Shown here in pieces: positions 4,363-49,014 of a stretch of DNA of 64,000 nucleotides. Positions within the stretch are counted from its first letter, which is position 1. Every line of letters begins with the position of its first letter. The DNA comes from Acidovorax carolinensis (GTDB taxonomy: Bacteria > Pseudomonadota > Gammaproteobacteria > Burkholderiales > Burkholderiaceae_C), in contig NZ_CP021361.1 of the NCBI RefSeq assembly GCF_002157145.1, positions 2,163,001 to 2,227,000 on the forward strand, in the 5' to 3' direction. Made by a program: the position numbers and the translations under genes. The notes beneath the pieces are model-generated. The model was not told where the DNA came from. It ran no database searches and saw only the letters and a list, made by a program, of their open reading frames with translations.

Positions 4363-7268
4363 ATGCTGATACACCCCAGCCACCAGCCAGCAGCCCGCCA
4401 AGCCACCCGCTCCGTGGGCGTCCTTTTGGTGCTGCTGTTGGTGGTGATGGGGCTGCCCTCCCTGCCCGGCATGAAGGGCGTGGCGCACTACCTGCCCCTG
4501 CACATGGCGCTGGAGACGCTGGCGATCGTGGTGGCAGCGCTCACATTTGGGGTCGTCTGGAGTGCACGGCATGAGCAATTGCCACGCAACGCGCTGGTGC
4601 TGGGCTGCGCCTTCCTGGGTGTAGGTTTGCTCGATTTCAGCCACATGCTGTCTTACAGCGGCATGCCCGACTTCATCACCCCCAGCTCGCCCGAAAAGGC
4701 CATCCATTTCTGGCTCGCCGCGCGGCTGCTGAGCGCGCTGGCCTTGCTCGCGGTGGCCGGGCTGCCCTGGAGTACCAGCGCCTCGCGGACGTACGTGGTG
4801 ACGCTGGTGGCCCTGGTGGTGGTGCTGGTGGCAGCCCTGCACTCGCTGTTCTTCTTTGCACCGCATCTTGTGCCCGAAACCTTCGTGCAAGGCCAAGGGC
4901 TTACCGCATTCAAGATCGGTTTCGAATACGCGCTGATGGCTCTTTACCTGGCCGCCGCCGCACTCCTGCTGTGGCACATGGGCCGGCCACGCAGCTTCAA
5001 CGCCAGCGGCCTGTTTGCCGCAGCGTGCGTCATGGGTCTCAGCGAGTTTTTCTTCACCCGCTACACCGGCGTGACCGACATCTACAACATGACGGGCCAC
5101 TTCTACAAGGTGCTGGCCTACGCATTTTTGTACCGCGCTGTCTTTGTTGAGACGGTGCAGCAGCCCTACACCCTGCTGCGCGCCTCGCAACGGCAGCTGC
5201 AGGCCACGCTCGATGCACTGCCAGACCCGCTGCTGGAGATCGACGACGAGGGGCGCTATGTGGATGTGCGCGCTGGCCACGTCGGTAGTCTGGCGGCCCC
5301 CATTAATCAGTTGCTGGGCAAGAACCTGCAAGAAGTCCTGCCTGCCGAAAGCGCCCGCATCACTCTTGCAGCCCTGGACGAAGCGCGCCAGCAAGGCTTC
5401 TCCCGGGGCAGCGTGGTGGCCTTGCAAGTACCCGATGGCAACCGGTGGTTTGAGTTGTCGGTGGCGCGCAAAGCCCCGCAGCCGGGCCAGGACCCGACCT
5501 TCGTGGTCATCTCGCGCGACATCACCCAGCGCCTGGAAAGCGACGAGGCGATGCGCAAGCTCTCGCTGGCCGTATCCCAAAGCCCCTGCCCATCGTCATC
5601 ACCGACCTGCAGGGATGCATCGAATTTGTCAATGACGCCTTCACCCGCTCCAGCGAATACACCGCCGACGAAGTGCTGGGTAAAAACCCGCGCATCCTGC
5701 AGTCGGGCAAAACGCCCTCGGCCACCTACCAGGGCATGTGGGACCAGCTCACCCAGGGCAAGCCTTGGCAGGGTGAGTTGACCAACCGCAGCAAGAGCGG
5801 GCGCGAGTTCACCGAATCGGTGCTCATTTACCCGGTGCGCAATGCCGAGGGCGTGGTCACCAACTACCTCGCCCACAAAGAAGACATCACCGAGCGCAAA
5901 CTGGCCGCCGAGCGCATCCAGCAGCTCTCGCACCATGACCAGCTCACCGGCCTGCCCAACCGTGTCATGCTAGGCAAGCACTTTGACTATGTGATCAGCC
6001 AAACCAACGCCCTGGCCGTGCTGTGGATCGACCTCGACCGGTTCAAGGACGTGAACGACTCGCTGGGCCACAACGCGGGCGACCTGCTGCTGCTGGAAAT
6101 CTCCCAGCGCCTGCGCACCAGCCTGCAAGACAACGCCACGCTGTCGCGCCACTCGGGCGATGACTTTGTCGCCCTGCTGCCCCACACCAGCCAGGACGAA
6201 GCTGCCAAGCTCTGCACCCGTTTGCTCGACGTGCTGGCGCAGCCGGTGCAGGTGGCGGGGCAGGAAATTTTTCTGACCGCATCCATTGGCATCGCCATCT
6301 CGCCCAATGATGGCCGCGAGCTCGAGGCCCTGCTCAAAAATGCCGAAATCGCCATGTACCGCGTCAAGGACGACGGCCGCAACAGCTACCGCTTCTTCAC
6401 GCCCGAGATGCAGGTGCACTCATCGCGCGCGCTGGCCCTGAGCAACGCCCTCAAACAGGCCCTGCCGCGCAACGAACTGCACCTGGTTTACCAGCCGCAG
6501 GTGTCGCTGCACGATGGCCGCATCATCGGCGCCGAAGCCCTGCTGCGCTGGAACCACCCGCAATGGGGTGTGGTGTCGCCCGCCGAATTCATTCCGCTGG
6601 CCGAGGCCAACGGCTTCATCGTGCCCATTGGCGAATGGGTGCTGCTCACCGCGCTGCGCCAGTTGCGCGCCTGGCTCGACACCGGCCTGCCCATGATGAC
6701 CGTGGCGGTCAACCTCTCGGCGGTGCAGTTTGGCCAAGCCGGGCTGACCGACATGGTGAGCCAGCTGCTGCGCCAGACCGGCGTGCCGCCCGAAGCGCTG
6801 GAACTGGAGCTGACCGAAGCCGTGGCCATGAAGACCCCGGAAGTTGCCGCCCAGAAGATGCAGGAGTTGAGCCAGCGCGGCATCCGCCTGTCCATCGATG
6901 ACTTTGGCACCGGCTACTCGTCGCTCAGCTACCTCAAGCGCTTCAACATCAACCAGCTCAAAATCGACCAGTCGTTCGTGCGCGACATCGGCACCGACAC
7001 CGACGACCAGGCCATTGCCACCGCCATCGTCCAGATGGCCCACAGCCTGGGCATGACCACCATCGCCGAAGGCGTGGAAACCGCAGAGCAACTGGACTTT
7101 CTGCGCGCGCGCGGCTGCGACCAGGTGCAGGGCTACCACTACAGTCGCCCACTGCTGCCCGAGCATTTCGAGGCCTTCGTGCGCGCCAACCTGCAGGCAC
7201 GCAAGCAAAAGCCCACCCCATCGGCACAGGCCAATATTCGGGCCCACGCGGTCGAAACAGCTACATAA
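4363..7268 (+). pseudogene. MASE3-PAS-GGDEF-EAL membrane protein with an internal frameshift
   Basis: Two overlapping frames (4363-5781 and 5673-7268) together encode one protein of about 968 residues. The N-terminal half has seven or so hydrophobic segments with LLDFSHMLSYSGMPDF, typical of the MASE3 sensor domain, followed by two PAS domains. The GGDEF domain has SGDDF in place of GGDEF, so cyclase activity is doubtful. The EAL domain keeps its key motifs (EALLRW, IDDFGTGYSS, LKIDQSF, IAEGVET, QGYHYSRPL) and should hydrolyse c-di-GMP. One base is missing around 5583-5586, in a CCCC run; restoring it gives an unbroken PAS domain. This may be a sequencing error or a real mutation. Confidence 0.85.
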
Positions 7269-11061: not shown

Positions 11062-11760
11062 ATGACTTCTACAGCCACCGCCGCCATCGACGCCACCGCC
11101 ACCCAGGCCTTCATCCAGCGCTGGCAGCACAACACCGCCAGCGAGCTGGCCACCGCGCAAAGCTTTGTGATGGACCTGTGCGCCCTGCTGGGGGTGGACA
11201 AACCCCACCCCACGCCCGAGCAAACCTACATGTTCGAGCGCCCGGTAACGTTTGCCCATGGCGACGGCAGCACCAGCGCCGGCCGCATCGACTGCTACCG
11301 GCGCGGCCACTTCGTGCTCGAGGCCAAAAAGCTCAAGGCCGGCAGCCACACCAAAGGCTTTGACGACGGCCTGCTGCGCGCCCGCAGCCAGGGCGAGGCC
11401 TACGCCCGCGCCCTGCCCGGCACCGAAGGCCGCCCGCCCTTTGTGCTGGTGGTGGACGTGGGCACCGTCATCGAGGTGTATGCCGAGTTCAGCAAAACCG
11501 GCGGCACCTACACCCCTTTCCCCGACCCGCGCAGCCACCGCCTGCAGCTCACCGACCTGGCCCGCCCCGAGGTGCAAGACCGCCTGCGCCGCATCTGGAC
11601 CGACCCCGACAGCCTGAACCCCGCCCGCATCAGCGCCCAGGTCACCCGCGACGTGGCCGCGCTGCTGGCGCGCCTCGCCAAGTCGCTCGAAACCAGCCGA
11701 CCAGCCGACCAGCCGACCAGCCGACCAGCCGACCAGAATTTTCGCAAAATACCGATCTAG
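11062..11760 (+). CDS. R-M protein piece 1: PD-(D/E)xK-type nuclease domain
   Basis: A 232-residue frame. [17 protein letters not shown] holds an Asp and an ExK motif in the spacing of a PD-(D/E)xK nuclease (about residues 74-90), as in MmeI-like enzymes. It continues through [17 protein letters not shown] to a conserved LARLAKSLE helix, then enters the tandem repeat, read as SRPADQPT, and stops at 11758-11760. Without the methyltransferase half, free nuclease activity is unlikely because cleavage in this family is coupled to target recognition. Confidence 0.75.
11693..11736 (+). repeat. 8-bp tandem repeat CCAGCCGA, 5.5 copies
   Basis: Five complete copies of CCAGCCGA (11693-11732) plus CCAG. 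The unit is not a multiple of three, so gain or loss of a unit changes the downstream frame. The nuclease part is in frame 1 and the methyltransferase part in frame 0 (start position modulo 3). Losing one unit or gaining two would join them; the present count does not. Confidence 0.9.
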
Positions 11761-11803
11761 CGCAACATAGTAAAGCGTTTATAGCTCCTGAAAAAGTAGC
11801 AAA
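11741..11803 (+). repeat. Palindromic repeat element, copy 4, inside the R-M gene
   Basis: Directly after the tandem repeat. It aligns along its length with the copy in gluQ: both begin AAAATACC, share CTAGCGC, then TAAAGCG, TAGC and a closing TAGCAA, and both are read in the same frame (LAxxxKA...AN). It therefore looks like an inserted, degenerating member of the family. Confidence 0.55.
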
Positions 11804-11828: not shown

Positions 11829-12602
11829 ATGTTTGCGGAGGACGTCGAGCTGCTGCCCAAAGGCGCCTTTCTGGGCCTGCTGCAAACCCACCGCGACGAC
11901 CCGGCCACGCTGCAGCACATGCTGCGCATTCTGTGGGCCGACATGGACCGGGGCGGCTTCAGCGCCGCGCTGGCCAAGCCCGTGCTGCACTTCAACGGCA
12001 AGCTGTTCAAGGGCGCAGGCGAAGACGGCTACAGCCTGTTGCTCACGCCCGAGCAGATCGACCTGCTGATAGCCGCCGCCAAGTCCAACTGGCGCGAGGT
12101 CGAGCCCGCCATCTTCGGCACCCTGCTGGAGCGCGCCCTCGACCCCGCCGAGCGCCACGCCCTGGGCGCGCACTACACGCCCCGCGCTTACGTAGAGCGC
12201 CTGGTGCTGCCCACCGTGATCGAGCCTCTGCGCGCCGACTGGGCCAACGCCCAGGCCGCCGCCCTGGTGCTGGCGCACGAAGCCGCCGCGCTGCAAGGCA
12301 AAGCGATGGAAGCCAAACTGGCCGAGGCCCGCGCCGAGGTGAAAAAATTCCACCACCAGCTGTGCACCACCCGCGTGCTCGACCCCGCCTGCGGCAGCGC
12401 CAACTTTTTGTACGTGACGCTGGAACACCTGAAGCGCCTGGAGGGCGAAGTCGTCAACCAGCTTGAAGCATTGGGGCACACCCAAGACCAGCTCGGCTTT
12501 GAAGGCGAAACCGTCACGCTGCAGCAACTGCGCGGCATCGAGCTGAACGAACGCGCCGCCGCCCTGGCCGAACTGGTGCTGTGGATTGGCTACCTGCAAT
12601 GA
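11829..12602 (+). CDS. R-M protein piece 2: spacer and methyltransferase motif I
   Basis: A 257-residue frame; the true open frame extends upstream into the repeat (…[19 protein letters not shown]), so ATG 11829 is internal to the ancestral protein. It contains [10 protein letters not shown] and a helical spacer ([27 protein letters not shown]), then the SAM-binding motif [12 protein letters not shown] at about residues 188-199. It ends at TGA 12600-12602, where relatives have Trp (GYLQW), indicating a TGG to TGA nonsense change. The next piece follows in the same frame. Confidence 0.75.
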
Positions 12603-12629: not shown

Positions 12630-13229
12630 GTGGCCGAACCCGTGGTGCACAACTACGGCAACATCGAATGCCGCGACGCCGTGCTGGCCTGGGACGCGCA
12701 AGAACTGGCGTATGACGACGCCGGCCAGCTGCTCAGCCGCTGGGACGGCACCACGTTCAAGACCCACCCCGTGACGGGCGAGCAGGTGCCCGACGAAGCC
12801 GCGCAGGTGCCGCAGTGGCGCTATGTAGGCGCCCGGCAGGCGCAGTGGCCGCAGGCGGATTTCATTGTGGGGAACCCGCCGTTCATTGGCGCCGCCAGCA
12901 TGCGCGCTGCCCTGGGCGATGGCTATGTGCAAGCCCTGCGCGGCGCCTGGCCCGAGGTGCCCGAGAGCGCAGACTTTGTAATGTTCTGGTGGCACCACGC
13001 CGCCGCGCAAGTGGCAGCAGGTCACACGCGGCGCATGGGGCTCATCACCACCAACAGCCTGCGCCAGACCTTCAACCGCCGCGTGGTGCAGGCCGCGCTG
13101 GACAAGGGCACGCACCTGGAAATGACCGTTCCCGACCATCCGTGGGTGGATGGCGCCAACGGCGCCGCCGTGCGCATTGCCATGACCGTGCTGGCACCCG
13201 GTGCGGGCGAGGGCTGCTGTTCACCGTGA
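12630..13229 (+). CDS. R-M protein piece 3: methyltransferase catalytic region
   Basis: Same frame as piece 2, so it is separated only by the stop codon. It holds the catalytic motif IV as [14 protein letters not shown] at about residues 84-97, typical of N6-adenine methyltransferases, and [11 protein letters not shown] further on. It runs out of frame at GEGCCSP near 13212, where adding one base restores [12 protein letters not shown] and joins piece 4. Confidence 0.7.
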
Positions 13230-14611
13230 CGGACGAACAGCCCGGTGAACACGGGGAAGTGGCCGTGCAACTGGCTGAGCGCGCCGGGCTGGTTCATGCC
13301 GATTTGAGCGTGGGCGCCAATGTGGCAGCGGCCCAACCGTTGCAGGCCATGGCAGGCATTTCGTCGCCCGGCGTCAAGCTCCACGGATCTGGCTTTCTGG
13401 TCACGCCCGCAGAGGCTGCTGCTCTTGGAAGCTCCGCACTTGTTCACGACTACCGCAATGGGCGTGACCTGACCGACAAGCCGAGAGGGGTTCGCATCAT
13501 TGACGCCTTTGGTCTGGATGCAGAAACACTACGCGCTCAACACCCAGCGATATACCAATGGCTACTGGAGCGGGTGAAACCAGAGCGCGACCAAAACAAC
13601 CGGGCCACTTATCGCGACAACTGGTGGATTTTTGGAGAACCACGCAGAGAACTGCGCCCCGCATTGGCCGGCCTGCCCCGCTACATCGCCACCGTCGAAA
13701 CCTCCAAGCACCGCACCTTCCAGTTCCTCGATGCCAGCATCCTGCCGGACAACATGCTGATTGCCATCGCCGTGAACGATGCGCTGGCGCTGGGCGTTCT
13801 GTCGAGCCAGTTGCACACAGAATGGGCGCTGGCAACCGGCGGCACGCTGGAAGATCGCCCGCGCTACAACAAATCCCGCTGCTTCGAAACCTTCCCCTTC
13901 CCCGACGAAGACACCGGCCTGACCCCGCAGCTCCGCGAGCGCATCGCGCAGCTCGCCGAGCAGATCGACGCTCACCGCAAGCGCGTGCTGGCGCCCGAAG
14001 CGGGCCACACCGGCCTCACGCTCACCGGCATCTACAACGTGCTGGCCGCCCTGCGCGAAGGCCGGGCACTCACCGCCAAAGAGAAAACCCAGCACGCCCA
14101 GGGCCTGGTGGGCGTGCTGCGCGAGCTGCACGACGAGCTGGACGCCGCGGTGCTGGCCGCCTACGGCTTGCCCGCCACGGCCAGCACCGACGACATCCTG
14201 GCCCACCTGGTGCAGCTCAACACCCAGCGTGCGCAGGAGGAAGCCCAGGGCCGCGTGCGCTGGCTGCGGCCTGACTTTCAAAATCCGCAAAATTCAGTGC
14301 AAAAACAGGAGCTGCTGCCGCAGGAAGAACAAGCGCCAGAGGCTGATTTGGACAGTGAAAAATCGCTATCAAAACCAGAGCAAACCAAACCCCAGCAGCT
14401 CCCCTGGCCCCCCACCCTGCCCGAGCAAGTGCGCGCCGTGGCTGATGCGCTGGCCGCCAGCCCGATACCGCTCACATTGAACGCCATCGAGCAGCGCTTC
14501 AAGGGCCGTGGCCCCTGGAAGAAGGGCCTGCCCACCCTGCTGCAAACGCTGGAAGCCCTGGGCCGCGCGCAGGCGGTGGCCACCGGGGGCGAAGTGGCGT
14601 GGCGGGGGTGA
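13212..14611 (+). CDS. R-M protein piece 4: target recognition and C-terminal domain
   Basis: The remaining part of the R-M protein in the third frame, from about [15 protein letters not shown] to the stop at 14609-14611. It includes [51 protein letters not shown] and [17 protein letters not shown], patterns seen in the target-recognition half of MmeI-like enzymes. The C-terminus ([22 protein letters not shown]) is present a second time, decayed, at 17049-17180. An AT-rich insert at 14299-14350 resembles the palindromic repeat. Confidence 0.7.
14299..14350 (+). repeat. Palindromic repeat element, copy 5, inside the R-M gene
   Basis: AAAACAGGAGCTGCTGCCGC, then AAGCGCCAGAGGCTGATTT, fits the family consensus (AGCTGCTAGCGC, loop, AAGCGCTAGAGGC). 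It is read in frame as part of a Gln/Glu-rich linker before the C-terminal domain. Confidence 0.5.
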
Positions 14612-24338: not shown

Positions 24339-24928
24339 CCCACGCCATTGCGCTGCAGCCGCTGGACTGGCTGAACCTCTTTCTCTACTTCATCTCGATC
24401 TCGCTGCTGGCCGTGGGCGGCGCCATTGCCACCGCGCCCGACATGCACCGCTTTCTGGTGGAGCGCCAGGGCTGGCTGACCGATTTCCAGTTCAATGCCT
24501 CCATTGCCATCGCGCAGGCGGCGCCGGGGCCCAATGTGCTGTTCATTGCGTTGCTGGGCTGGAACGTGGGCATCAACACCGGCGGCGCCGGTCCGGCAGC
24601 CTGGGCCAGCGGCGCTTTGGGCATGGCGCTCAGCATGGTCGGCATCATGCTGCCCAGCACCACGCTGACCTGGCTGGCCACGCGCTGGGGTCACCGCAAC
24701 CGCGAACGGCGCAGCGTGCGCGCCTTCAAGCAGGGCATGGCGCCGGTGGTGATCGGGCTGCTTTTGGCCACCGCCTGGCTGCTGAGCGGTGCCCATGGCA
24801 ACCCGGCCACCGACTGGCCGCTGTGGCTGCTCACGCTGGTGTGCACGCTGCTGGTGTGGCGCACCCGGCTGCACCTGCTGTGGCTGCTGGGCGCCGGGGC
24901 GCTGCTGGGGGCGCTGGGGCTGGTGTAG
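24335..24928 (+). CDS. chrA: Chromate transporter half-protein, ChrA C-type domain
   Basis: A 197-residue partner of the preceding gene, starting at the overlapping ATGA. It has FISISLLAVGGAIATAPDMHRFLVERQGWLTDFQFNASIAIAQAAPGPNVLF, the CHR-domain signature with the conserved APGPN, and several membrane helices ending LLGALGLV. The overlap implies translational coupling and a 1:1 pair. No chrB-like regulator is in the window. Confidence 0.9.
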   Translation: MTHAIALQPLDWLNLFLYFISISLLAVGGAIATAPDMHRFLVERQGWLTDFQFNASIAIAQAAPGPNVLFIALLGWNVGINTGGAGPAAWASGALGMALSMVGIMLPSTTLTWLATRWGHRNRERRSVRAFKQGMAPVVIGLLLATAWLLSGAHGNPATDWPLWLLTLVCTLLVWRTRLHLLWLLGAGALLGALGLV

Positions 24929-24945
24929 CGGCGGGCGCAAGCCGC

Positions 24946-26111
24946 TCAGCTCAGGCGCCGACCGTTTTCTGCATAGATGGCCAGATAGATCGAATCCGAA
25001 CCCACATACGGGCCCTTGCTGCCAAAGCCGATATGGAAATCGCCCACCGACAGCGAGTGGATGCCGGCCAGCCCGCGCGCAGGCGCTCACGCGTGAGGTC
25101 CTTGCCCGCTTTGCGCAGGCCTTCGATCATGACCTGGGCATTGAGCCAGCCTTCCAGGCTGCTGCCGCTGGTCAGATAGGTGGGGTTGGCGCCCACGGCC
25201 TTCATCGTGGCCTGAAATCTGCGCACCACCACTGACTTTTGCGAGGTGGCATCGGGAAACACCTGCGCCAGCGCCAGCCCGCGGGTGGCGGCGGCCAGCT
25301 TGGGCAGTTCGGAAGGGATCACCGACACCGACAGCCCCGCCAACGGCACCCCTTGCGCTCTGGCACGAAACGCCAGCACGAAGGCCGTGTTGGCCTTGCC
25401 AGTGGTCGCCAGCAGCACGGCCCCGGGGCGCTCGGCCGCCACCCTGTCGGCCAGCGCGGCAGCGTTGTTGCCGTCCACCGCCAGGGCGAACTGCCCGGCG
25501 CGCTCGACCTTGGCGCTGTCCAGAGCCTGTGCCATGTCCCTGAGCACTTCTTTTCCAAAGGGGTTGTCCAGATACACCACGGCAATGCGCTTGAGGCCCA
25601 TCTGCACCACCTGCTTGACCAGGCGAATGCTTTCGTCGCGGTAGCTTGGGCGCACAAAGAACACATGGCGTTGCTCGGCGCTGCGCAGCGAAGGCGCTCC
25701 GGTGACGGGCCCCACGGTGGGAATGCCCTTGCTTTCTATCAGCGGCAGGATGGCCGCCGTGTTGGCCGTGCCAAGCGGCGAGATGAGGGCAAAGACGGTT
25801 TGCGCCTCGACCATCTCGGTGATGTTCTGCAGGGTGCGACTGGCCACATAGCCATCGTCCTTGGCGTCCATGCGGATCTCGCGGCCATGCACGCCGCCCG
25901 CGTGGTTCAGTTCGGCAAACGCCGCTTTCATGCCGGCCACATGTTCAATGCCTGCCTGGCCCAGCGGGCCGGAAAGCGCAATCGAGCAGCCCAGGTTCAC
26001 GTAACGGGCCGTCATCCACTCTTCGGATGCCCGTGCAACCGGGGCCCATGCGGGCAGCCCCGCAGTGGCACAGGCCCGCGTGGCGCGCAGCAGAAATTGA
26101 CGACGACTCAT
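24946..26111 (-). CDS. Leu/Ile/Val-type ABC transporter substrate-binding protein, 3' frameshift
   Basis: About 388 residues after repair. Twin-Arg-like N-terminus (MSRRQFLLRATRACATAG) with an export signal ending near ARASEE, then a Peripla_BP_6 fold: LGCSIALSGPLGQAGIEHVAGMKAAFAELNHAGGVHGREIRM and RIAVVYLDNPFGKEVLRDM. The present frame ends in a nonsense tail after LTRERLRAG. One missing base near 25080 would continue as LAGIHSLSVGDFHIGFGSKGPYVG and stop at 24946-24948, the normal family ending. No permease or ATPase genes are adjacent, so it is an orphan receptor and its ligand is unknown. Confidence 0.8.
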
Positions 26112-26242
26112 GGTGTAACTACGCCCGAAACAGTGGAACAGCGGCGCAGGCTAAAGACGCCCCCGGCAACGCACGGTCCATTGTGCGACAAGGTTGCAGC
26201 AACACGACGGCCGAGGCAACGATGCGCGCATTTTGAGAAGGC

Positions 26243-26992
26243 TCAAGGAGGCGCCAGCAAGGCGGGCAACACGCTGGCGGCCGTGCCACACAGCAGCGCA
26301 TGGGCCACATCGTCGAGCGCGCTTGCGGCCGGGTTGATGATGGCCACGCGCGCACCGGCCTCGCGCGCCAGCCTGGCCAGCCCCGCCGCCGGGTACACGG
26401 CGCCCGCCGTGCCTACCACCAGCATCAGGTCGCAGGCGCGGGCGGCCTTTTGGGCGGCCTCCAGCGTGTCATACGGGAGTGCCTCGCCAAACCACACCAC
26501 GCCCGGCCGCACCATATTGCCGCAGCGGTCGCAGTACGGCGGGTGGTCGGCCACGGCGTGGTCGATGTGGCAGCAGTTGCGCGGGGTGTCGAGCCAGCGC
26601 TCGGCAAATATGTCGCCATGCAGGCACAGCACGCCGGTGCTGCCCGCGCGCTGGTGCAGGCCATCGACGTTCTGGGTGATCAGTGTGAGGCGCCCGGGTT
26701 GCTGCTGCTGAAACTGCGCCAGCGCCACATGGGCCGCATTGGGCTGCACGCCGGCCAGCAGATCGCGCCGGTGCTGGTACCAGTCCCACACGCGCCGGGG
26801 GTGGGCGCGAAAGCCTTCCTCGGTCGCCATGTCTTCGGGGCGGAACTGCGCCCAGTAGCCGGTTTGCGCCCCGCGAAAAGTGGGCACACCCGACTCGGCG
26901 CTGACGCCCGCACCGGTAAGCACGGCAATGTGGCCTGCGCCCTGCAGCCATTGCCGCACCTCGCCAGCATCTGCAGGAAAAACGTTGTTCAT
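26243..26992 (-). CDS. Sir2-family NAD-dependent protein deacylase
   Basis: A 249-residue sirtuin that removes acyl groups from lysines using NAD. The NAD pocket GAGVSAESGVPTFRG (about 27-41), TQNVDGLHQRAG and the catalytic His in LHGDIF are present, with YCDRCG and upstream Cys residues for a zinc site, and VVGTAGAVYPAAGL. The WYQHRR segment supplies the Tyr-x-x-Arg pair of class III sirtuins (CobB, SIRT5), so desuccinylase activity is possible. It lies on the same strand as the tetR gene, 171 bp downstream of it. Confidence 0.9.
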   Translation of the reverse strand: MNNVFPADAGEVRQWLQGAGHIAVLTGAGVSAESGVPTFRGAQTGYWAQFRPEDMATEEGFRAHPRRVWDWYQHRRDLLAGVQPNAAHVALAQFQQQQPGRLTLITQNVDGLHQRAGSTGVLCLHGDIFAERWLDTPRNCCHIDHAVADHPPYCDRCGNMVRPGVVWFGEALPYDTLEAAQKAARACDLMLVVGTAGAVYPAAGLARLAREAGARVAIINPAASALDDVAHALLCGTAASVLPALLAPP

Positions 26993-27163
26993 GCGCGCAG
27001 ATTATCAAGCCGGCGCGGGCCGCGACGAGGGACTCCAGTCGCGTCGGAGGGTGGCATGCCCGGGCCCACCCCTAACCCATTCTTCCACCCACCGCCGGCC
27101 GTGGCTGACGGCTGCAACGCTGCTGCGCAGCCGGATGTTTTTTCTGTCGTTGCCTGGACGCGC

Positions 27164-27859
27164 TCAGCCCGCCAGCCCCTGCTCCACCATTGCCACGGTG
27201 CGCTGGGCCATGGCTTCGGCCTGCGCGGCGCTCAGCGAGCGCAGCGGGCCGTCGAGCGCCAGCATGGCCAGGCCGTGCACGGCCGACCAGGCCAGGAACT
27301 CGGCGCCCGGGCGCTGTGCCGCGCCAAGTGCGCCGGCAGCCACCATGTCGTCGAGGGTGCCGCACAGGATCTCGAACGGGTCGCGCCCGCTGTCGCCACG
27401 AAAGTCGTCGCGGCTTTCGTTGGCCACGTCAAAGGGCTGGGCCACGAACGCGGTGCGGAACAGCCCCGACTCGGCCAGCGCGAAGCGCACGTAGCCCGTG
27501 CCGACGGCCTTGAAAGCGGCGCGCGCCCGCGCCACCGGGGCGCTCAGGTGGCGCGTGGCGCTGTCAATCTCGGCCTCCATGGCGCGCGCCATCAAGCCCA
27601 GTGCGGCGCCGCGGACGGCGTCGAGCAGGGCCGCGTGGCCGGCGAAGTGGCGGTAGGCGGCGTTGGGCACCACGCCGGCGCGGCGTGTGGCCTCTCGCAA
27701 TACCAGCGCCGACGGCCCACCCTCACGCACCAGCGCGATGCCTGCATCGAGCAGCGCGCGGCGCAGGTCGCCATGGCGGTAGGTGGGCCGCCGCGCGGTC
27801 TGGCCTGCGGACGCGGCAGGGGTGGAGGGAGTGTGAGGAACGGAAAGCGAAGCGCTCAA
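27164..27859 (-). CDS. TetR/AcrR family transcriptional regulator
   Basis: A 231-residue repressor-type regulator. The N-terminal helix-turn-helix RHGDLRRALLDAGIALVREGGPSALVLREATRRAGVVPNAAYRHFAGHAALLDAV spans about residues 28-84; the C-terminal ligand domain with DPFEILCGTLDDMVAAGAL and AWSAVHGLAMLALDGPL is of the WHG type. It starts at a TTG (27857-27859) behind an AGGGA. The gene is divergent from the VOC/SRPBCC operon at 27974, and two related palindromes lie between them, so it probably represses that operon and itself. Confidence 0.88.
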   Translation of the reverse strand: MSASLSVPHTPSTPAASAGQTARRPTYRHGDLRRALLDAGIALVREGGPSALVLREATRRAGVVPNAAYRHFAGHAALLDAVRGAALGLMARAMEAEIDSATRHLSAPVARARAAFKAVGTGYVRFALAESGLFRTAFVAQPFDVANESRDDFRGDSGRDPFEILCGTLDDMVAAGALGAAQRPGAEFLAWSAVHGLAMLALDGPLRSLSAAQAEAMAQRTVAMVEQGLAG

Positions 27860-27891
27860 GACGGCATCCCTGTTCTGCGAAGGGTTAAATG

Positions 27892-27936
27892 TGGACGCTG
27901 TCCATTTTACGGAGGAATAAAGTGGACGTCGTACAC
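27892..27936. promoter_or_regulatory. Two palindromic operators between tetR and the VOC operon
   Basis: TGGACGCTGTCCA (27892-27904) is a perfect 5-3-5 palindrome. GTGGACGTCGTACAC (27922-27936) is an imperfect version of the same motif. Their centres are 31 bp apart, about three helical turns, on one face of the DNA. They fit a TetR-type dimer binding twice. Confidence 0.65.
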
Positions 27937-27973
27937 ATATTGCTCCATTGATCGTTTAATACAGGAGACTTGC

Positions 27974-28336
27974 ATGGATTCCAACAGCTATATCGACGGC
28001 TTCCTCTGCGCCGTGCCGACTGCGCGGCGCGACGAATACCGCCAGCACGCCAGTGAAGCGGCGCGCATCTTCCGCAAGCACGGCGCGCTGGCGCTCATCG
28101 AGTGCTGGGGCGACGATGTGCCCGAGGGCAAGCTGACCTCGATGCCGATGGCCGTCAAATGCCAGCCCGACGAAACCGTCGTCTTCGCGTGGGCCGTGTG
28201 GCCGTCCAAAGCGGTGCGCGACGACGGCATGCAGGCGATCGACAACGACCCCGACACACACCGGCAAATGCAGCAGATGCCGTTCGACGGCAAGCGCGTG
28301 ATCTACGGCGGCTTCACGCTGCTGGTCGACGGCTGA
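27974..28336 (+). CDS. DUF1428 family protein
   Basis: A 120-residue ferredoxin-like-fold protein of the DUF1428 family: YIDGFLCAVPTARRDEYRQHASEAARIFRKHGALALIECWGDDVPEGKLTSMPMAVKCQPDETVVFAWAVWPSKAVRD and the closing DGKRVIYGGFTLLVDG are diagnostic. The biochemical role is unknown. It is the first gene of a six-gene operon, with AGGAGA 9 nt before the ATG, and faces tetR. Confidence 0.9.
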   Translation: MDSNSYIDGFLCAVPTARRDEYRQHASEAARIFRKHGALALIECWGDDVPEGKLTSMPMAVKCQPDETVVFAWAVWPSKAVRDDGMQAIDNDPDTHRQMQQMPFDGKRVIYGGFTLLVDG

Positions 28337-28376
28337 GACAGCCCGCCACATCCGCACGGTTGCACGGAGACCCACC

Positions 28377-28862
28377 ATGACACCACCCAAGAACACCATC
28401 TGCCTCTGGTACGACAACGACGCTGAAGAAGCAGCGCGGTTCTACGCCAGCACGTTTCCCGATTCGGCCGTCGGCGCCATCCACCGCGCGCCCGGCGACT
28501 ATCCCGCAGGCAAGGCGGGTGATGTGCTGGTCGTCGAGTTCACGGTGCTGGGCTTGCCCTGCATGGGACTCAACGGTGGGCCTGGGGTCAAGCACAGCGA
28601 GGCGTTCTCGTTCCAGGTCGCCACCGCCGATCAGGCCGAGACTGACCGCTACTGGAACGCCATCGTCGGACACGGCGGCCAGGAAGTCGAATGCGGCTGG
28701 TGCAGGGACAAATGGGGCATCTCGTGGCAGATCACGCCCATCGCGCTGACGCAGGCCTTCACTGGCGCCGACCGGGCAGCCGCCAAGCGCGCCTTCGACG
28801 CCATGATGACCATGAAGAAGATCGACATCGCTGCCATCGAGGCTGCGGTGGCGGGCCGCTGA
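28377..28862 (+). CDS. VOC family protein (PhnB/3-demethylubiquinone methyltransferase-like)
   Basis: A 161-residue protein of the glyoxalase/VOC superfamily, PhnB-like branch (PF06983 type). It opens with NTICLWYDNDAEEAARFYASTFPDS and continues with GGPGVKHSEAFSFQVATADQAETDRYW and WGISWQITP. VOC proteins bind a metal or small electrophile between paired beta-alpha-beta modules; the activity of this branch is not established. Second gene of the operon, 40 bp after DUF1428. Confidence 0.88.
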   Translation: MTPPKNTICLWYDNDAEEAARFYASTFPDSAVGAIHRAPGDYPAGKAGDVLVVEFTVLGLPCMGLNGGPGVKHSEAFSFQVATADQAETDRYWNAIVGHGGQEVECGWCRDKWGISWQITPIALTQAFTGADRAAAKRAFDAMMTMKKIDIAAIEAAVAGR

Positions 28863-28899
28863 CCTGCCGTACCCCACCCCTGTTCAAACCGGAGGCACC

Positions 28900-29337
28900 A
28901 TGCAATTCACCCCCTACCTCAACTTCGACGGCAACTGCCGCGAGGCCTTTGCCTTCTACAAGGATCTGTTCAAGGGCACCGTGGTGCACCAGAGCACCTT
29001 CGGCGAGATCCCGCCAGACCCGCAGAATCCGCCGATCCCGCCCGATGCGAAAGACCGCCTGATGCATGTGCACCTGCAGGTCGGCGAGCAGGCGCTGATG
29101 GGCTCTGACACGCTACCCGGCGCCGGCGACGCATGCGCTGGCGGCTATGCCAAACCGCAAGGCCTGTGGGTGTCGATCCAGGCGGACGATGTCGCCGAAG
29201 GCCGGCGGGTTTTTGACGCCCTGGCGCAAGGCGGCCAGGTGACCATGCCGTTCGACAAGACCTTCTGGTCGGCCGGGTTCGGCATGGTGACCGACCGCTT
29301 CGGCACGCCGTGGATGATCAACGTGGGTGCCGCCTGA
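28900..29337 (+). CDS. VOC family protein (PhnB-like)
   Basis: A 145-residue PhnB-like VOC protein: FTPYLNFDGNCREAFAFYKDLFKG, then DRLMHVHLQVGEQALMGSDTLPG, SIQADDVAEGRRVFDALAQGG and WSAGFGMVTDRFGTPWMINV. It is a distant paralogue of the preceding gene rather than a recent duplicate. Third gene of the operon; 37 bp from its neighbour, with GGAGG before the ATG. Confidence 0.9.
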   Translation: MQFTPYLNFDGNCREAFAFYKDLFKGTVVHQSTFGEIPPDPQNPPIPPDAKDRLMHVHLQVGEQALMGSDTLPGAGDACAGGYAKPQGLWVSIQADDVAEGRRVFDALAQGGQVTMPFDKTFWSAGFGMVTDRFGTPWMINVGAA

Positions 29338-29350
29338 GGGAAAGCCGATC

Positions 29351-29797
29351 ATGCCCACTGGAACCGTCCGCCTGCACCGCGTGCTGCGCACCACACCCGA
29401 CAAGGTATACCGCGCCTTCACCCACGGCGCGGCCTTGGCCAAATGGCTGCCGCCCTACGGCTTCGTCTGCCACGTCCATCAGTTCGATGGCCAGGTCGGC
29501 GGCAGCTTCAAGATGTCGTTCGAGAACTTCTCGAGCGGCCACAGCCATTCGTTCGGCGGCGAATACTTGCAGATGGTGCCAGGCGAACTGGCGGAGTACA
29601 CCGACCGCTTCGACGACCCCCATCTGTCCGGCCAGATGCAGGTGACCGTGAAGCTGCGCGCCGTTTCGTGCGGCACCGAGGTCCACATTGAGCAAGCCGG
29701 AATCCCCGAGGTGATTTCGGTCGAGATGTGCTACCTGGGCTGGCAGGAATCGCTGCAGCAGCTGGCCGCGCTGGTCGAGCCGGACATTCCGGGCTGA
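29351..29797 (+). CDS. SRPBCC (AHSA1-type) family protein
   Basis: A 148-residue START-like domain protein: TVRLHRVLRTTPDKVYRAFTHGAALAKWLPPYGFVCHVHQFDGQVGGSFKMSFENF and LGWQESLQQLAALVEP. The fold makes a deep hydrophobic pocket for a small ligand; the ligand is unknown. ATG 29351 is preferred to the in-frame GTG at 29327, which overlaps the upstream stop. Fourth gene, 13 bp after the VOC gene, so probably translationally linked. Confidence 0.88.
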   Translation: MPTGTVRLHRVLRTTPDKVYRAFTHGAALAKWLPPYGFVCHVHQFDGQVGGSFKMSFENFSSGHSHSFGGEYLQMVPGELAEYTDRFDDPHLSGQMQVTVKLRAVSCGTEVHIEQAGIPEVISVEMCYLGWQESLQQLAALVEPDIPG

Positions 29798-29866
29798 TGG
29801 TTGCCGCACACCAGACCGAGGCTGCATGCCCGACACAAATCAGGCGCCTAAACCGAGGACAAGACG

Positions 29867-30964
29867 ATGACAAGTGTTCGCGTGGAAAGCTTCACCATCT
29901 CGCTCGACGGATATGGAGCGGGTCCGGACCAAAGCCTTGATGATCCGCTCGGCATCGGTGGGACGGAACTGCAGCAGTGGCTACTGCCGACCCGCACGCT
30001 CCAGCGCACGCTGTTCGGCCAGAACGGCGGCACCACGGGGGTTGACGATGATTTCGCCGCGCGCGGCTTTCAGAACGTCGGCGCCTGGATTCTGGGGCGC
30101 AACATGTTCGCCCCCTTCCGCGGCGACTGGCAGGCCAAGTCCTGGAAAGGCTGGTGGGGAGACGATCCGCCGTACCACGTCCCGGTCTTCATCCTGACCC
30201 ACCATGCCCGGCCGCCGATCGAGATGGAAGGCGGCACAAGCTTCCACTTCGTTACTGGCGGCATCCATGAAACGCTCGACCGTGCACGCGATGCCGCTGG
30301 CGGCAAGGACGTGCGGATCGGCGGCGGGACCAACACCATCCGGCAGTACCTGCGTGAAGGCCTTGTCGACGAACTGCACATCGCCATCGCGCCGGTCCTG
30401 CTCGGCCGGGGAGAGCCGCTGTTCCAGGGGCTCGACCTGCGGGCGCTGGGCTACGAAAGCGTTGAGTTCGTAGCGTCGGCCAAAGCCACGCATGTCGTCC
30501 TGCGGCGCCACGCTCACCCGGCGCCCGAGCAGGCGTCGCCGAAAGGCATGGCAATGAAGATCACCATCGAAACCAGTGTCCACGCACCCATCGACCGCGT
30601 ATGGGCCGCCTGGAATGACCCGAACGCCATCGAGCAGTGGAACGCCGCCTCACCCGACTGGCACACACCGCGCGCCAGCGTCGATCTGCGCGAAGGTGGC
30701 AAGTTCTGCACACGAATGGAGGCGCGGGACGGCAGCGTCGGCTTCGACTTCGAGGGCACGTACACCCGTATCGCTCCGCAGCGCCTGATCGAATACACCC
30801 TGAGCGACGGGCGCAAGGTGCGTGTCGAGTTCGCTCCAGTGGCAAATGGCATCACGGTGCGTGAGACCTTCGACGCCGAGGACAGCCACAGCGCCGAACA
30901 GCAGCGCCAGGGCTGGCAGGCCATCCTGGACAACTTCGCACGGTACGTCGAGCGCCGCGCGTGA
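29867..30964 (+). CDS. RibD/DHFR-like domain fused to an SRPBCC domain
   Basis: A 365-residue fusion. Residues 1-215 are a RibD C-terminal/dihydrofolate reductase-like domain: VESFTISLDGYGAGPDQSLDDPLG, VGAWILGRNMFAPFRGDW, VRIGGGTNTIRQYLREGLVDELHIAIAPVLLGRGEPLF. Residues about 230-365 are a complete AHSA1-type SRPBCC domain: MKITIETSVHAPIDRVWAAWNDPNAIEQWNAASPDWHTPRASVDLREGG to YVERRA. The join reads PAPEQASPKGMAMKIT, where MAMKIT looks like an old start codon, so the fusion may come from loss of a stop between two genes. Fifth gene of the operon. Substrate unknown; reductase activity is inferred from the fold. Confidence 0.85.
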   Translation: MTSVRVESFTISLDGYGAGPDQSLDDPLGIGGTELQQWLLPTRTLQRTLFGQNGGTTGVDDDFAARGFQNVGAWILGRNMFAPFRGDWQAKSWKGWWGDDPPYHVPVFILTHHARPPIEMEGGTSFHFVTGGIHETLDRARDAAGGKDVRIGGGTNTIRQYLREGLVDELHIAIAPVLLGRGEPLFQGLDLRALGYESVEFVASAKATHVVLRRHAHPAPEQASPKGMAMKITIETSVHAPIDRVWAAWNDPNAIEQWNAASPDWHTPRASVDLREGGKFCTRMEARDGSVGFDFEGTYTRIAPQRLIEYTLSDGRKVRVEFAPVANGITVRETFDAEDSHSAEQQRQGWQAILDNFARYVERRA

Positions 30965-30993
30965 TTCACCCTCAGCAACGCAAGGAGTAACCC

Positions 30994-31380
30994 ATGAAAC
31001 CCAATCCCGTCGTCTGGTTCGAGATCCATGTGCAGGACATAGCCCGCGCGCGCAAGTTCTACGAAGCGGTGTTCCAGTGCCAGCTGGAGACGCTGAAATC
31101 ACCCGCGGGTGAAGCCAACGGCATGCAGATGCTGTCCTTCCCTGGCGACATGACCACCACGGGCGCCAGCGGCGCGCTGGTCGAGATGGAGGGCGTGCCC
31201 TCTGGTGGCGGCGGCACGCTGGTCTACTTTGCCTGCGAGGATTGCGCTGTCGAACAAGGCCGCGTCGACAAGGCCGGCGGCAAAGTGTTCAAGCCCAAGT
31301 TTTCGATCGGCGAATACGGCCACTGCGCCCTCGTGACCGACACCGAGGGCAACATGATCGGCCTACATTCGATGAAATGA
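30994..31380 (+). CDS. VOC family protein (glyoxalase-like)
   Basis: A 128-residue VOC protein of the common bleomycin-resistance/glyoxalase type: PVVWFEIHVQDIARARKFYEAVFQCQLETL, GGGGTLVYFACEDCAVEQGRVDKAGGKVFKPKFSIGEYGHCALVTDTEGNMIGLHSMK. AAGGAG lies 8 nt before the ATG. Last gene of the operon; rlmB converges 20 bp downstream. Confidence 0.9.
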   Translation: MKPNPVVWFEIHVQDIARARKFYEAVFQCQLETLKSPAGEANGMQMLSFPGDMTTTGASGALVEMEGVPSGGGGTLVYFACEDCAVEQGRVDKAGGKVFKPKFSIGEYGHCALVTDTEGNMIGLHSMK

Positions 31381-31399
31381 CGCAGGCCGTGCGGGCTTT

Positions 31400-32149
31400 C
31401 TAGCCGCCCCGCTGCCGCAGCGCTTCATACAGGCACACGCCGCTGGCCACGGAAACGTTGAGGCTCTCCACCGCGCCCTTCATGGGGATGCTGACGAGCT
31501 CGTCGCAAGTCTTGCGCGTGAGCTGGCGCATGCCGTCGCCTTCGGCACCCAGCACCAGGGCCACGGGGCCTTTCAGGTCCACCTGGTAAATGGTCTTGGG
31601 CGCATCGTCGCTGGTGCCGATGCACCAGATGTTGCGCTCCTTGAGTTCGTTCAGGGTGCGAGAGAGGTTGGTGACCATGAAGTACGGCATGGTCTCGGCC
31701 GCGCCGCTGGCCACCTTGGCCACGGTGGCGTTGATGCCCACGGCATGGTCTTTGGGGGCGATGACCGCATGGGCACCGGCGCCATCGGCCACGCGCAGGC
31801 AGGCGCCCAGGTTGTGCGGGTCGGTCACGCCGTCGAGCACCAGCAGCAGGGGCTGCTCGATGCCGGCGGCTTCGAGGTTTTCGAGCAGCTCATCGAGCGA
31901 GGTGACCTGCGCCACGGGCTCTACCCGCGCGGCCACGCCCTGATGGCCGTGGCTGCCGGCCAGCTTGGCGATGCGCACGCTGTCAGCCTCGATCAGGCGG
32001 GCACCGGCCTCGCGGGCGCGGTCGAGAAACTGGCGCATGCGCGCATCGCGCCGCGTGGCTTCGTAGTAAATCTCGATAATGGATTTCGGCGCGGTCTTCA
32101 GACGCACGCCCACGGCGTGAAAGCCGAAGAGAACTTTGGGGCTGGACAT
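31400..32149 (-). CDS. rlmB: 23S rRNA (guanosine-2251-2'-O)-methyltransferase RlmB
   Basis: A 249-residue SpoU-type (SPOUT) methyltransferase. The N-terminal substrate-binding domain begins [19 protein letters not shown]; the catalytic knot carries the three SpoU motifs: [54 protein letters not shown] and [20 protein letters not shown]. It methylates the 2'-OH of G2251 in the 23S peptidyl-transferase loop. The frame is open to 32212; ATG 32149 matches the family start. Divergent from sstT; the 292-bp gap between them has no further gene. Confidence 0.95.
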
Positions 32150-41789: not shown

Positions 41790-42560
41790 GTGAACAACCA
41801 TGTCCTGAACATCTCCTGCTACAAATTCGTGCCATTGCCCGATGCAGAGGCATTGCGCAAGCTGCTGCACGAGCGGGCCACCGCCGCCGCGCTCAAAGGC
41901 ACCATCTTGCTGGCCCACGAAGGCATCAACATGTTCCTGGCGGGCCCGGCCGCGGCGGTGCACGGCTTTGTCGATGCCCTGCGCACCGACCCGCGCTTTA
42001 CCGACCTGGCTCCCAAGGAGAGCTGGTCAGACACCGTGCCGTTTCGCAAGATGCTGGTCAAGGTCAAGCGCGAGATCATCCGCATGGACCACCCCGCCAT
42101 CCAGCCCGCTTCAGGCCGGGCACCCGCCGTCACGCCCGCCACCCTGCACCGCTGGCTAACCCAAGGCCATGACGACGCAGGCCGCCCCGTGGTGACGCTG
42201 GACACGCGCAATGCCTTCGAGGTGGATGAAGGCACGTTCGACAACGCCATCGACTGGCGCATCGACAAGTTCACCGAGTTCCCCCCGGCCCTGCAGGCAC
42301 ACAAGGCCGAGCTGGCGGACAAGACGGTGGTGAGCTTTTGCACGGGCGGCATCCGCTGCGAAAAAGCCGCCATCCTGATGCGCGAGGAAGGCCTCACGCA
42401 TGTCTACCAGCTCGAAGGTGGCATCCTGAAATATTTCGAGGAAACGGATGGCGCGCATTACCACGGCGGTTGCTTCGTGTTTGACGAGCGCCGCACGCTG
42501 GCCGCCGACCTGTCAGCCGGCAGCCTGCGCAACGCCCCTGATGACGCTATTGATAAGTGA
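41790..42560 (+). CDS. trhO: tRNA uridine(34) hydroxylase TrhO (rhodanese-like, YceA)
   Basis: A 256-residue protein. The N-terminal TrhO domain ([45 protein letters not shown]) precedes a rhodanese domain with the active-site loop [14 protein letters not shown] near residue 184 and [14 protein letters not shown]. TrhO makes 5-hydroxyuridine at tRNA position 34 using O2. It follows the ATPase gene by 65 bp. The stop codon (42558-42560) is provided by a palindromic repeat, so the last few residues (DDAIDK) derive from the element. Confidence 0.93.
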
Positions 42561-42600
42561 GCTACTAGCGCTTGCTACACAAGCGCTAGAGGCATATTTA
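42546..42600. repeat. Palindromic repeat element, copy 9
   Basis: GCTACTAGCGCTTGCTACAC, AAGCGCTAGAGGCATATTT. The arms CTAGCGCTT and AAGCGCTAG pair perfectly (9 bp) around the loop GCTACAC. It overlaps the 3' end of trhO and could end transcription between convergent trhO and the pirin operon. Confidence 0.8.
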
Positions 42601-42626
42601 CCTGGAAACCTGCGTTCAGCCTCGCA

Positions 42627-46877: not shown

Positions 46878-48019
46878 ATGAAAAAACCCGTTTCCCGCCC
46901 CGCCAAACGGCCCCGACGCCCCGGCTCCCCTGCAGCAGCCCCTGCCAAACGCCAGCCTGGCACAGCGGCAAAGACCGCCAAAACGCCACGCCATTTCGCC
47001 ATCATTGGCGCGGCATGGCCGGCGTGGTTTGCGCGCGCACGCTGGTGCAGGCAGGCCACCAGGTCACTGTCTTTGAAAAATCGTCCAGGGCCGGTGGGCG
47101 CACCACCACCATCGACTCCCCGTTCGGCAGCTTTGACGCCGGTGCGCAATATTTCACCGTGCGGGACCCGCGTTTTGCACAAGCCATAGACACCGTGCCC
47201 GGCGTGTGCCGGCCCTGGAGCGCCAACGCCGTGCGCGTGCTCGATGCTGCAGGCCGCGTGGCGGCCGCGGGCCTGCCCACCCGCGAACCCCACTGGGTGG
47301 CCAGCCCGGGCATGAGCGCCCTCGTCACCACCTGGGCGGCCCCGCTGCTGCAGGCCGGCCAACTCATCACCGACACCCGCGTGAGCAGCATCGAGCGCGA
47401 CCCGCTCGATGGCGCCCACTGGCAGGTGCGCACCGAAGGCGCGGGCGGCACGCAGCATGTGTATGCCGGCTTTGATGCCGTGCTGCTGGCCCAGCCCGCC
47501 ACGCCGGCCCAGGCGCTGCTGGCGGTTTCCGCGCTGGAAACCCCGCTGAGCACCGCCATGGCGCGCGTGACCACCGCCCCCTGCTGGACGCTGATGCTCG
47601 CCTACCCGCAAGCCGTGCGCCCGGGCCTGACCACCCTCGGCCCCCAATGGAACGCAGCCCGCAGCACCCACCACCGCATTTCGTGGCTGGCACGCGAGTC
47701 GTCCAAACCCGGCCGCACCACCGTCGAACGCTGGACGGTGCAAGCCAGTCCGGCCTGGTCGGCAGAGCACCTGGAAGACGACGCCGAGCGCGTGCAGTCC
47801 AAGCTGCTCAAGGCGTTTTCCGAAGTCACCGGCATTCGGGCCGAACCCACCCATGCCGATACGCGCCGCTGGCGCTATGCGCAAACCACGCAGCCCATGG
47901 GCCAGAGCCACCTGTGGGACGCCAGCATGGCCCTGGGCGCCTGCGGCGACTGGTGCCTGGGCCACCGCCTGGAAGACGCTTTTGTGTCCGGTCTGGAGCT
48001 GGCACTCGCCGTGGCATGA
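46878..48019 (+). pseudogene. FAD-dependent amine oxidase/renalase-like protein with an early frameshift
   Basis: After a basic leader (MKKPVSRPAKRPRRPGS...), the frame reads HFAIIGA and then shifts. One missing G near 47012 would give IIGAGMAGVVCARTLVQAGHQVTVFEKSSRAGGRTTTIDSPFGSFDAGAQYFTVRDPRF, a standard FAD-binding Rossmann start. The rest (47015-48019) is intact through [39 protein letters not shown], the C-terminal FAD contact. The family oxidises NAD(P)H isomers or amines; the substrate is unknown. The stop overlaps the gluQ start. Sequencing error is as likely as a true lesion. Confidence 0.8.
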
Positions 48020-49014
48020 CGGGCGGTGAAGGGGCCCGCCGGGCGGTTACCACGTACCAGGGCCGCTTTGCCCCCTCGCCCACCGGTCCGCTGCATGCGG
48101 GCTCGCTGGTGGCGGCGCTGTCCAGTTGGCTGGATGCGCGGGCCTGGAACGAGGGGCGCGGCGGACGCTGGCTGGTGCGCATCGAAGATGTGGACACACC
48201 ACGTTGCGTGCGCGGCGCTGCCGAACTCATCTTGCAGCAGCTGGCCACCTGCGGGCTGCTGCCCGACGCACCGCCGGTATGGCAATCCGAGCGCGGCGCG
48301 CTGTACCAGCAGGCGCTGGACCAGCTCATCGCACAGGGCCATACCTACCCCTGTGCCTGTTCCCGCAAGGACATCGAAGACGCCCATGCGGCGCAAGGCC
48401 ATGACCGCGCACGCCACGCCACCTTGCCCTACCCCGGCACCTGCCGCCATGGCCTGCGTGGCCGGCCCGCGCGATCGTGGCGGTTCAACACCACGGAATT
48501 CAAGCCAAAATACCCTCTAGCGCCTATGGATAAAGCGCAAGCAGCTACATTTTCAATAGCAAACGGTACGGTGCGCTGGGCGGACCGTCGCCTCGGCCCC
48601 CAGGCGCAGCATGTGGCCAGCGCTGTGGGCGACTTCGTGTTGCGCCGCGCAGACGGACTGTGGGCCTACCAGCTGGCCGTGGTGGTGGACGACGCGGCCC
48701 AGCAGATCACCCATGTGGTGCGCGGCGAAGACCTGGCCGACAACACGCCGCGCCAGATCCTGCTGCAGCAGGCGCTGGGGGTGGCAACACCGAGCTACCT
48801 GCACACCCCGCTGGTCTGCGGCGCCAATGGGGAAAAACTCTCCAAGCAAAACGGCGCCGCGGCGCTCGACCTTGATGATCCCCTGCAGGCCCTGGGCAAC
48901 GCGGCCCGGACGCTCGGCCTTCCGCCCCTGGACCCTTCGCACAAAAATTCGCTACCGGACGCATTGGGGATGTGGGTCAATGCCTGGGCGCGAACCTACA
49001 ATGGGCCATCGTGA
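48016..49014 (+). CDS. gluQ: Glutamyl-Q tRNA(Asp) synthetase
   Basis: A 332-residue truncated GluRS paralogue that attaches glutamate to queuosine 34 of tRNA-Asp. It has the HIGH-like [16 protein letters not shown] (about 19-34), RIEDVDTPR, a Cys pair and downstream Cys in YPCACSRKD and GTCRHG for zinc, [22 protein letters not shown] and the KMSKS-like KLSKQNG. The ATG overlaps the stop of the FAD gene. About 20 residues ([19 protein letters not shown], near 165-183) are encoded by a palindromic repeat inserted in frame before [10 protein letters not shown]; family members lack this stretch. Its codons are AT-rich compared with the rest. Confidence 0.92.
48506..48560 (+). repeat. Palindromic repeat element, copy 10, inserted in gluQ
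   Basis: AAAATACCCTCTAGCGCCTA, TGGATAAAGCGCAAGCAGCTAC, then ATTTTCAATAGC. The inverse orientation matches the intergenic copies (GTAGCTGCTTGCGCTTTATC). The reading frame is kept. Confidence 0.75.

Follow-up and report, generated by a model that had tools for sequence, protein, structure and literature searches.

The stretch of DNA analysed here, 64 kb of Acidovorax carolinensis (the window), very probably carries an MmeI-like Type IIL restriction-modification gene subject to phase variation, which on the evidence of its sequence now stands in the OFF register. An 8-bp tandem array at the point where the nuclease joins the helical spacer leaves these two parts of the enzyme in different reading frames. 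Comparison with related genes gives good support to a wider reading, in which this joint would be a recurrent site of phase variation in the gene family. The phase-variation interpretation that was originally proposed for the window is thereby supported at the level of the family by differences in array length, by the tie between the array and the frame, and by a natural ON/OFF pair. The gene has the following features.

11062..11760, plus strand: nuclease module as now framed, Pfam MmeI_N (84.6 bits, cut-off 27), 232 codons from ATG 11062 to TAG 11758-11760
11281..11331, plus strand: PD-(D/E)XK-type motif GRID...EAKK, whose catalytic-type residues D, E and K have their codons at 11290, 11320 and 11326, respectively
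11692..11736, plus strand: 8-bp tandem array CCAGCCGA, 5.6 perfect copies (TRF)
11737..11801, plus strand: AT-rich remainder of the tether, its 3' end resembling an interspersed repeat
11829..12602, plus strand: helical spacer and methyltransferase part 1, in a frame other than that of the nuclease (MmeI_hel 34.5 bits, MmeI_Mtase 65 bits), ending with TGA 12600-12602
12381-12407, plus strand: methyltransferase motif DPACGSANF, read from the sequence
12600..12602, plus strand: TGA where, in comparison with relatives, genome G026 has W (GYLQWHIRTRG) and genome G024 a sense codon
12630..13229, plus strand: methyltransferase part 2 (MmeI_Mtase 38.7 bits), with the NPPF motif at 12873-12884
13205..13215, plus strand: single-base frame break (at about 13210) in comparison with the syntenic G024
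13220..14611, plus strand: target-recognition domain and C-terminal part (MmeI_TRD 43.2 bits)
14306..14351, minus strand: interspersed element in inverted orientation, which the C-terminal part reads in frame (E 2e-4, 76% over 46 nt; best E of the reversed control 0.11)

MmeI_N, MmeI_hel, MmeI_Mtase and MmeI_TRD all score above their Pfam cut-offs and follow one another in this order; in the window copy they are spread over separate frames. The order of nuclease, helical spacer, methyltransferase, target-recognition domain (TRD) and C-terminal part is also that of MmeI (PMC4833311; PDB 5hr4), and the N-terminal half of a relative, L136, matches PDB 5hr4 with an E-value of 6.5e-20, its residues 257-404 falling on MmeI 186-336. 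The four domains in order, together with this match, mark the gene as MmeI-like Type IIL rather than generic Type IIG. The type IIG label of the original prediction is refined here to MmeI-like Type IIL. Both the PD-(D/E)XK residues of the nuclease and the N6-adenine methyltransferase motifs, NPPF included, are present, and the first two motifs are conserved in an alignment of 27 rows, in which the D and E columns of PD-(D/E)XK reach at least 90% and the K is invariant. The motif goes by this name in PMC4833311 as well.

The array follows directly on the nuclease and directly precedes the helical spacer, in the first fifth of the gene. It is a genuine and perfect 8-bp repeat, as predicted with a count of 5.5 units: TRF reports it as the sole array at 11692-11736 (period 8, 5.6 copies, match 100%, score 90), and the remaining 12 TRF rows of the window have no more than 2.9 copies each. 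The exact lag-8 run at the array is 37 nt long, the runner-up among runs at lags 4 to 12 in the window is 13 nt, and 60 windows simulated from its dinucleotide frequencies gave no exact run longer than 14 nt. The length of the array is far beyond chance. The predicted interval, 11693-11803, contains the array; what it covers beyond the array is the AT-rich stretch. Among 398 other sampled genomes of the family, three hold a 20-mer of the CCAGCCGA array, by eye outside the MmeI-like gene, and the 16-mer CCAGCCGACCAGCCGA has no second occurrence in the 4.12-Mb genome of the window.

The repeat is stop-free in all three reading frames, with a peptide cycle of PADQPTSR, and it is a simple sequence repeat (SSR) in the coding frame whose unit is not a multiple of 3. 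As 8 is 2 modulo 3, the register in which the gene is read is set by the copy number, and the frame arithmetic put forward originally is correct. The nuclease and the methyltransferase do lie in different frames across the array, the nuclease frame ending at its TAG and the methyltransferase frame being open upstream as far as 11364. With 5.6 copies the array is short, which we counted against switching.

We then compared the array with the frame in relatives of the gene. The sample consisted of 123 methyltransferase loci including the window, of which four lacked a nuclease within reach (L013, L018, and L010 with L092, another record of it) and 20 were duplicates, leaving 99 distinct copies; one of the searches contributed the best 80 of 317 matches, the weaker methyltransferase matches L094-L112 were left out and three matches had no locus. 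The L010 and L092 records break off inside a AGTCCAGC array of at least 11.9 copies. The nuclease and the methyltransferase are in frame without stops in 94 of the 99 copies and in frame with a stop in two (L062 and L141). The three remaining copies, which are out of frame, are the window copy, L091 in G026, a complete Acidovorax genome, and L016 in an Ottowia MAG. These three, and they only, bear the CCAGCCGA array at the nuclease/spacer joint. Other clear non-triplet arrays are found in two in-frame copies, L012 (GACGG x4.4) and L136 (CAGAA x16). Hence, three of the five copies with a non-triplet array are out of frame versus none of the other 94 (Fisher p 6e-5), a ratio that would be three of seven if the weak repeats of L005 (4-bp x2.75) and L036 (5-bp x2.8), not counted as arrays, were included.

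A repeat number fixed across strains had been named as an outcome that would speak against switching. It is not what we found, as the copy number at this orthologous position is 5.6 in the window, 3.6 in G026 and 2.4 in L016. Copy number varies among relatives and sets the frame, as in SSR phase variation. Apart from the frame change at its array, the G026 copy is intact, with a frame of 983 codons. A scan of whole genes (102 copies), with an array cut-off that was set by hand and barely admitted L016, located non-triplet arrays at the joint of six genes (15.1 kb; binomial 7e-8). The same scan showed one such array in or before the nuclease (53.7 kb) and none in the 252 kb of methyltransferase and TRD.

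Natural pairs of alleles also speak for switching. P0044 is an OFF protein of 235 aa, and L012, from Acidovorax sp. MR-S7, is an ON gene; 195 of their 196 aligned nuclease residues agree. The last 18 residues of P0044, KLYIKYGANAIPASARSS, and the stop that follows them are encoded letter for letter by the L012 DNA right after the array, in a frame that differs from that of the methyltransferase. With a shared nuclease and with KLYIKYGANAIPASARSS encoded off-frame in L012, P0044 and L012 must have arrays of unequal length, which put what follows into different frames. Taking the array length of P0044 from the protein, the difference would amount to two 5-bp units. A natural ON/OFF pair of near-identical genes, in line with the phase-variation reading, thus exists for the sister unit GACGG. 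In a second pair, L016 and P0016, all 93 residues that precede the array are identical, as is the entire tail; the two differ by 16 residues, equal to six 8-bp units. Array length therefore changes within a lineage.

Truncated proteins with periodic tails at the same joint also turned up in a search with the nuclease module, which covered proteins of 128-406 aa and the best 120 of 595 matches and is not informative on how common the OFF form is. Of 240 scored homologues, 22 could not be placed, 57 lacked a recognisable spacer and 161 had one. Twelve of the 57 were periodic, and all 12 could be explained by one DNA unit of 5, 7, 8 or 10 bp. Periodicity was seen in four of the 161 proteins with a spacer, two of them full-length and of non-triplet kind, P0172 (CAGAA) and P0202 (7 bp). 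When the repeat peptides were shuffled, such a unit was possible in 0-4 of 500 cases where the period was 7, 8 or 10; the two peptides of period 5 allowed it in 25 and 42 of 500. Truncation is likely to be real for P0001, P0003, P0006, P0008, P0024 and P0040, which come from contigs of at least 18 kb, unless they lie at a contig end. It is borne out for P0016 and P0044, the stop being present in the DNA of relatives. P0013, P0015, P0017 and P0018 are on contigs of 1.8-4.6 kb and their ends may be contig ends. Among named isolates, the OFF form is seen for instance in Acidovorax sp. 69 (P0003) and in Acidovorax sp. JHL-9, where P0001 is accompanied by a methyltransferase entry of its own, P0261, from a contig of equal length. 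Databases hold such pairs as separate 'nuclease' and 'methyltransferase' entries, which in JHL-9 are probably one gene in the OFF register.

The peptide of CCAGCCGA itself occurs in five of 269 proteins (P0001, P0003, P0007, P0016 and P0073). All CCAGCCGA alleles of known register are OFF, namely those of the window, G026 (which is P0003), P0001, L016 and P0016; neither a full-length protein with the peptide nor an ON allele of this unit was found among the 269, taken from lists of the best 120 matches. P0007 and P0073 agree in 143 of the 154 residues that precede the array and continue beyond it in different frames. Their contigs are 1.1 and 0.8 kb long, and one of the two could represent the ON register, cut by the contig end.

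The following mechanism would account for these findings. Slipped-strand mispairing would change the length of the array, and the length would determine whether the nuclease is joined to the rest of the enzyme (ON) or stopped early (OFF). In the OFF register cutting and marking would be lost together, because the methyltransferase frame has, from the nuclease stop to 11900, a single ATG (11829) and no GTG or TTG, this ATG has no Shine-Dalgarno-like sequence before it, and a start there would cut into the spacer. We considered a methyltransferase-only product of the OFF form and disfavoured it on the same grounds. Presumably, some cells of a population would then restrict phage and plasmid DNA, and methylomes would be mixed. 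The nuclease of MmeI (residues 1-155) is unseen in the crystal and is called 'flexibly tethered' to the spacer (PMC4833311). If the tether is flexible in this family as well, nearly any joint peptide would be tolerated when the gene is ON, and this is probably why the joint recurs as a contingency site. In an AlphaFold model of L136 (mean pLDDT 75.3) the longest stretch under pLDDT 50, residues 210-249, comprises the array peptide and its neighbour, although the 27-row alignment has few rows at the tether, which lowers confidence there as well.

The window copy has further lesions, and these bear on whether it can still switch. Both the TGA at 12600 and the shift placed originally near 13212 (about 13210 in our comparison) are present in the given sequence. 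The TGA is a substitution and not an indel. The reference for the shift, G024, is syntenic with the window over about 51 of the 64 kb, in eight blocks of 91-95% identity; nothing in this syntenic stretch of G024 aligns with 24927-31403, some 6.5 kb in which AHSA1, DUF1428, RibD_C and periplasmic binding protein domains are encoded. Single-base frame breaks relative to G024 also occur at 5583, in a GGDEF/EAL/MASE3 gene, and at 47012, in an amine-oxidase gene, and are probable base-calling errors of the assembly. A possible HipA C-terminal frameshift upstream of the gene was dropped, as there is no indel relative to G024 at that place.

These isolated 1-nt breaks in conserved genes justify the caveat of the original prediction about a missing base, and they raise the question of whether the out-of-frame state is itself an assembly artefact, with a wrong unit count or a base missing near the array. 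We regard this as very unlikely, since two independent sources, the complete genome G026 and the MAG that holds L016, show the CCAGCCGA array out of frame as well, and isolate JHL-9 has the split form. On the other hand, the occurrence of such breaks in ordinary genes of the window means that the 13210 break is probably of the same class and may be a base-calling error. Because of the TGA, the window copy may be dead whatever the length of its array. It is quite possible, if somewhat doubtful, that the gene is decaying into a pseudogene in this strain, with the array change as one of several inactivations and no switching left, even though the family switches. Two further lesions in one gene, one of them a substitution, speak for decay; against it, the 13210 break resembles the other single-base breaks of the assembly, and conservation is otherwise good, with 257 aa at 99% to G024. 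In its present OFF state the window gene may still be switchable or may have lost this ability.

Several repeat-switched enzymes are known with which the candidate can be compared. Cj0031c of Campylobacter jejuni, a Type IIG enzyme, has a polyG tract at position 2573 of 3732 bp, and both of its activities are predicted to be lost together (PMC4889913). The likeness lies in a one-chain enzyme turned ON or OFF by a repeat in the coding frame; the difference, in multi-base units (8 bp, and 5 and 7 bp in relatives) at the nuclease/spacer joint instead of polyG. JHP1272 / HP1353-HP1354 of Helicobacter pylori, tentatively assigned to Type IIL by its authors, resembles the window gene as a Type IIL-like enzyme in which a repeat shifts the frame between ON and OFF; the alignment of its recognition domain shows two homopolymers, and one of these switches specificity (PMC3936762). 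No second switch of this kind is seen in the window gene. M.Btr188III of Bibersteinia trehalosi, too, has a multi-base array in its coding region, a pentanucleotide with 27 copies in frame and 17 out of frame, but belongs to another methyltransferase system and carries the array N-terminally (PMC4996451). For MmeI itself the accessible text mentions no array (PMC4833311), whereas here the tether varies in length.

The difference from published repeat-switched Type IIG and IIL enzymes lies in the site (the nuclease tether), in multi-base units that vary from one relative to another, and in hosts that belong to the Comamonadaceae; we found no report of an array in an MmeI-like enzyme of this family among the literature titles listed. 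To our knowledge, phase-variable restriction is known mainly from host-adapted pathogens. The present reading, if true, would place repeat-switched restriction in environmental, free-living betaproteobacteria.

The tether contains more than arrays. The tether sequence of an array-free relative, L008, matches the genome of the window at no fewer than 40 places (best E 7e-11; 40 out of 85 candidates were scored); a pattern for the element gave one match, versus the 40 scored by the DNA search. Against the window alone it gave six matches under E 0.01 and its reversal none. One of the regions matched is the end of the window tether, 11782-11801 (19/20, E 8e-4), of which only the last 20 nt are recognisable. 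AT-rich copies of the element, about 50-66 bp long, lie in the window at 42559-42607, 48499-48546, 2629-2677, 14306-14351 and 131-160. Stop-free frames of at least 600 nt span 18 of the 30 copies that were fetched, a weak indication in a GC-rich genome, and some copies may be read in frame inside proteins. Comparable elements, the Rickettsia palindromic elements, are read in frame inside proteins. By eye, the array abuts an AT-rich element-like stretch in all six array-bearing DNA copies, and other dispersed repeats are in frame in the tethers of L007, P0051, P0169, P0254, P0257 and P0269, with peptides such as PHPxPLPEGEG, IPAQAGIQ and PEPVEG, which we take to be of dispersed-repeat origin. 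These observations suggest, tentatively, that the joint tolerates insertions and that arrays originate there.

Tolerance could, however, explain the content of the linker by itself. The array would then be a neutral length polymorphism and the OFF alleles mutational load, with no selected switch. Apart from the unrelated interspersed repeats in frame in the linker, this agrees with the proportion of six non-triplet to two triplet arrays (9-bp, in L019 and L060), counted with the array cut-off of the whole-gene scan, which is about what unit length alone predicts. We consider it unlikely, as a steady need for an intact protein should remove non-triplet arrays, and the joint keeps them while the methyltransferase and TRD are free of them. 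Furthermore, the units differ (5, 7 and 8 bp), and presence of the array changes at least 11 times by parsimony on a 56-row tree, in which 25 of 53 inner branches have under 80% support, the family may recombine and P0256, with its array after an off-frame stretch, is included.

With a chance that we put just short of even, the tether is a contingency hot spot of a Comamonadaceae Type IIL lineage, in which an AT-rich element settled in frame and arrays of unrelated 5, 7 and 8 bp units arose repeatedly on its upstream side. Each array would then act as an ON/OFF switch without cost in the ON state, since the tether would accept any peptide. A switch rebuilt from different repeats at one joint would, if true, point to selection for switching and not to one lucky repeat. 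Also of note is the tether of L060 (315 nt, just before position 5001), which by eye contains three successive element-like copies in addition to a 9-bp array, CAAGCACAG x4.6.
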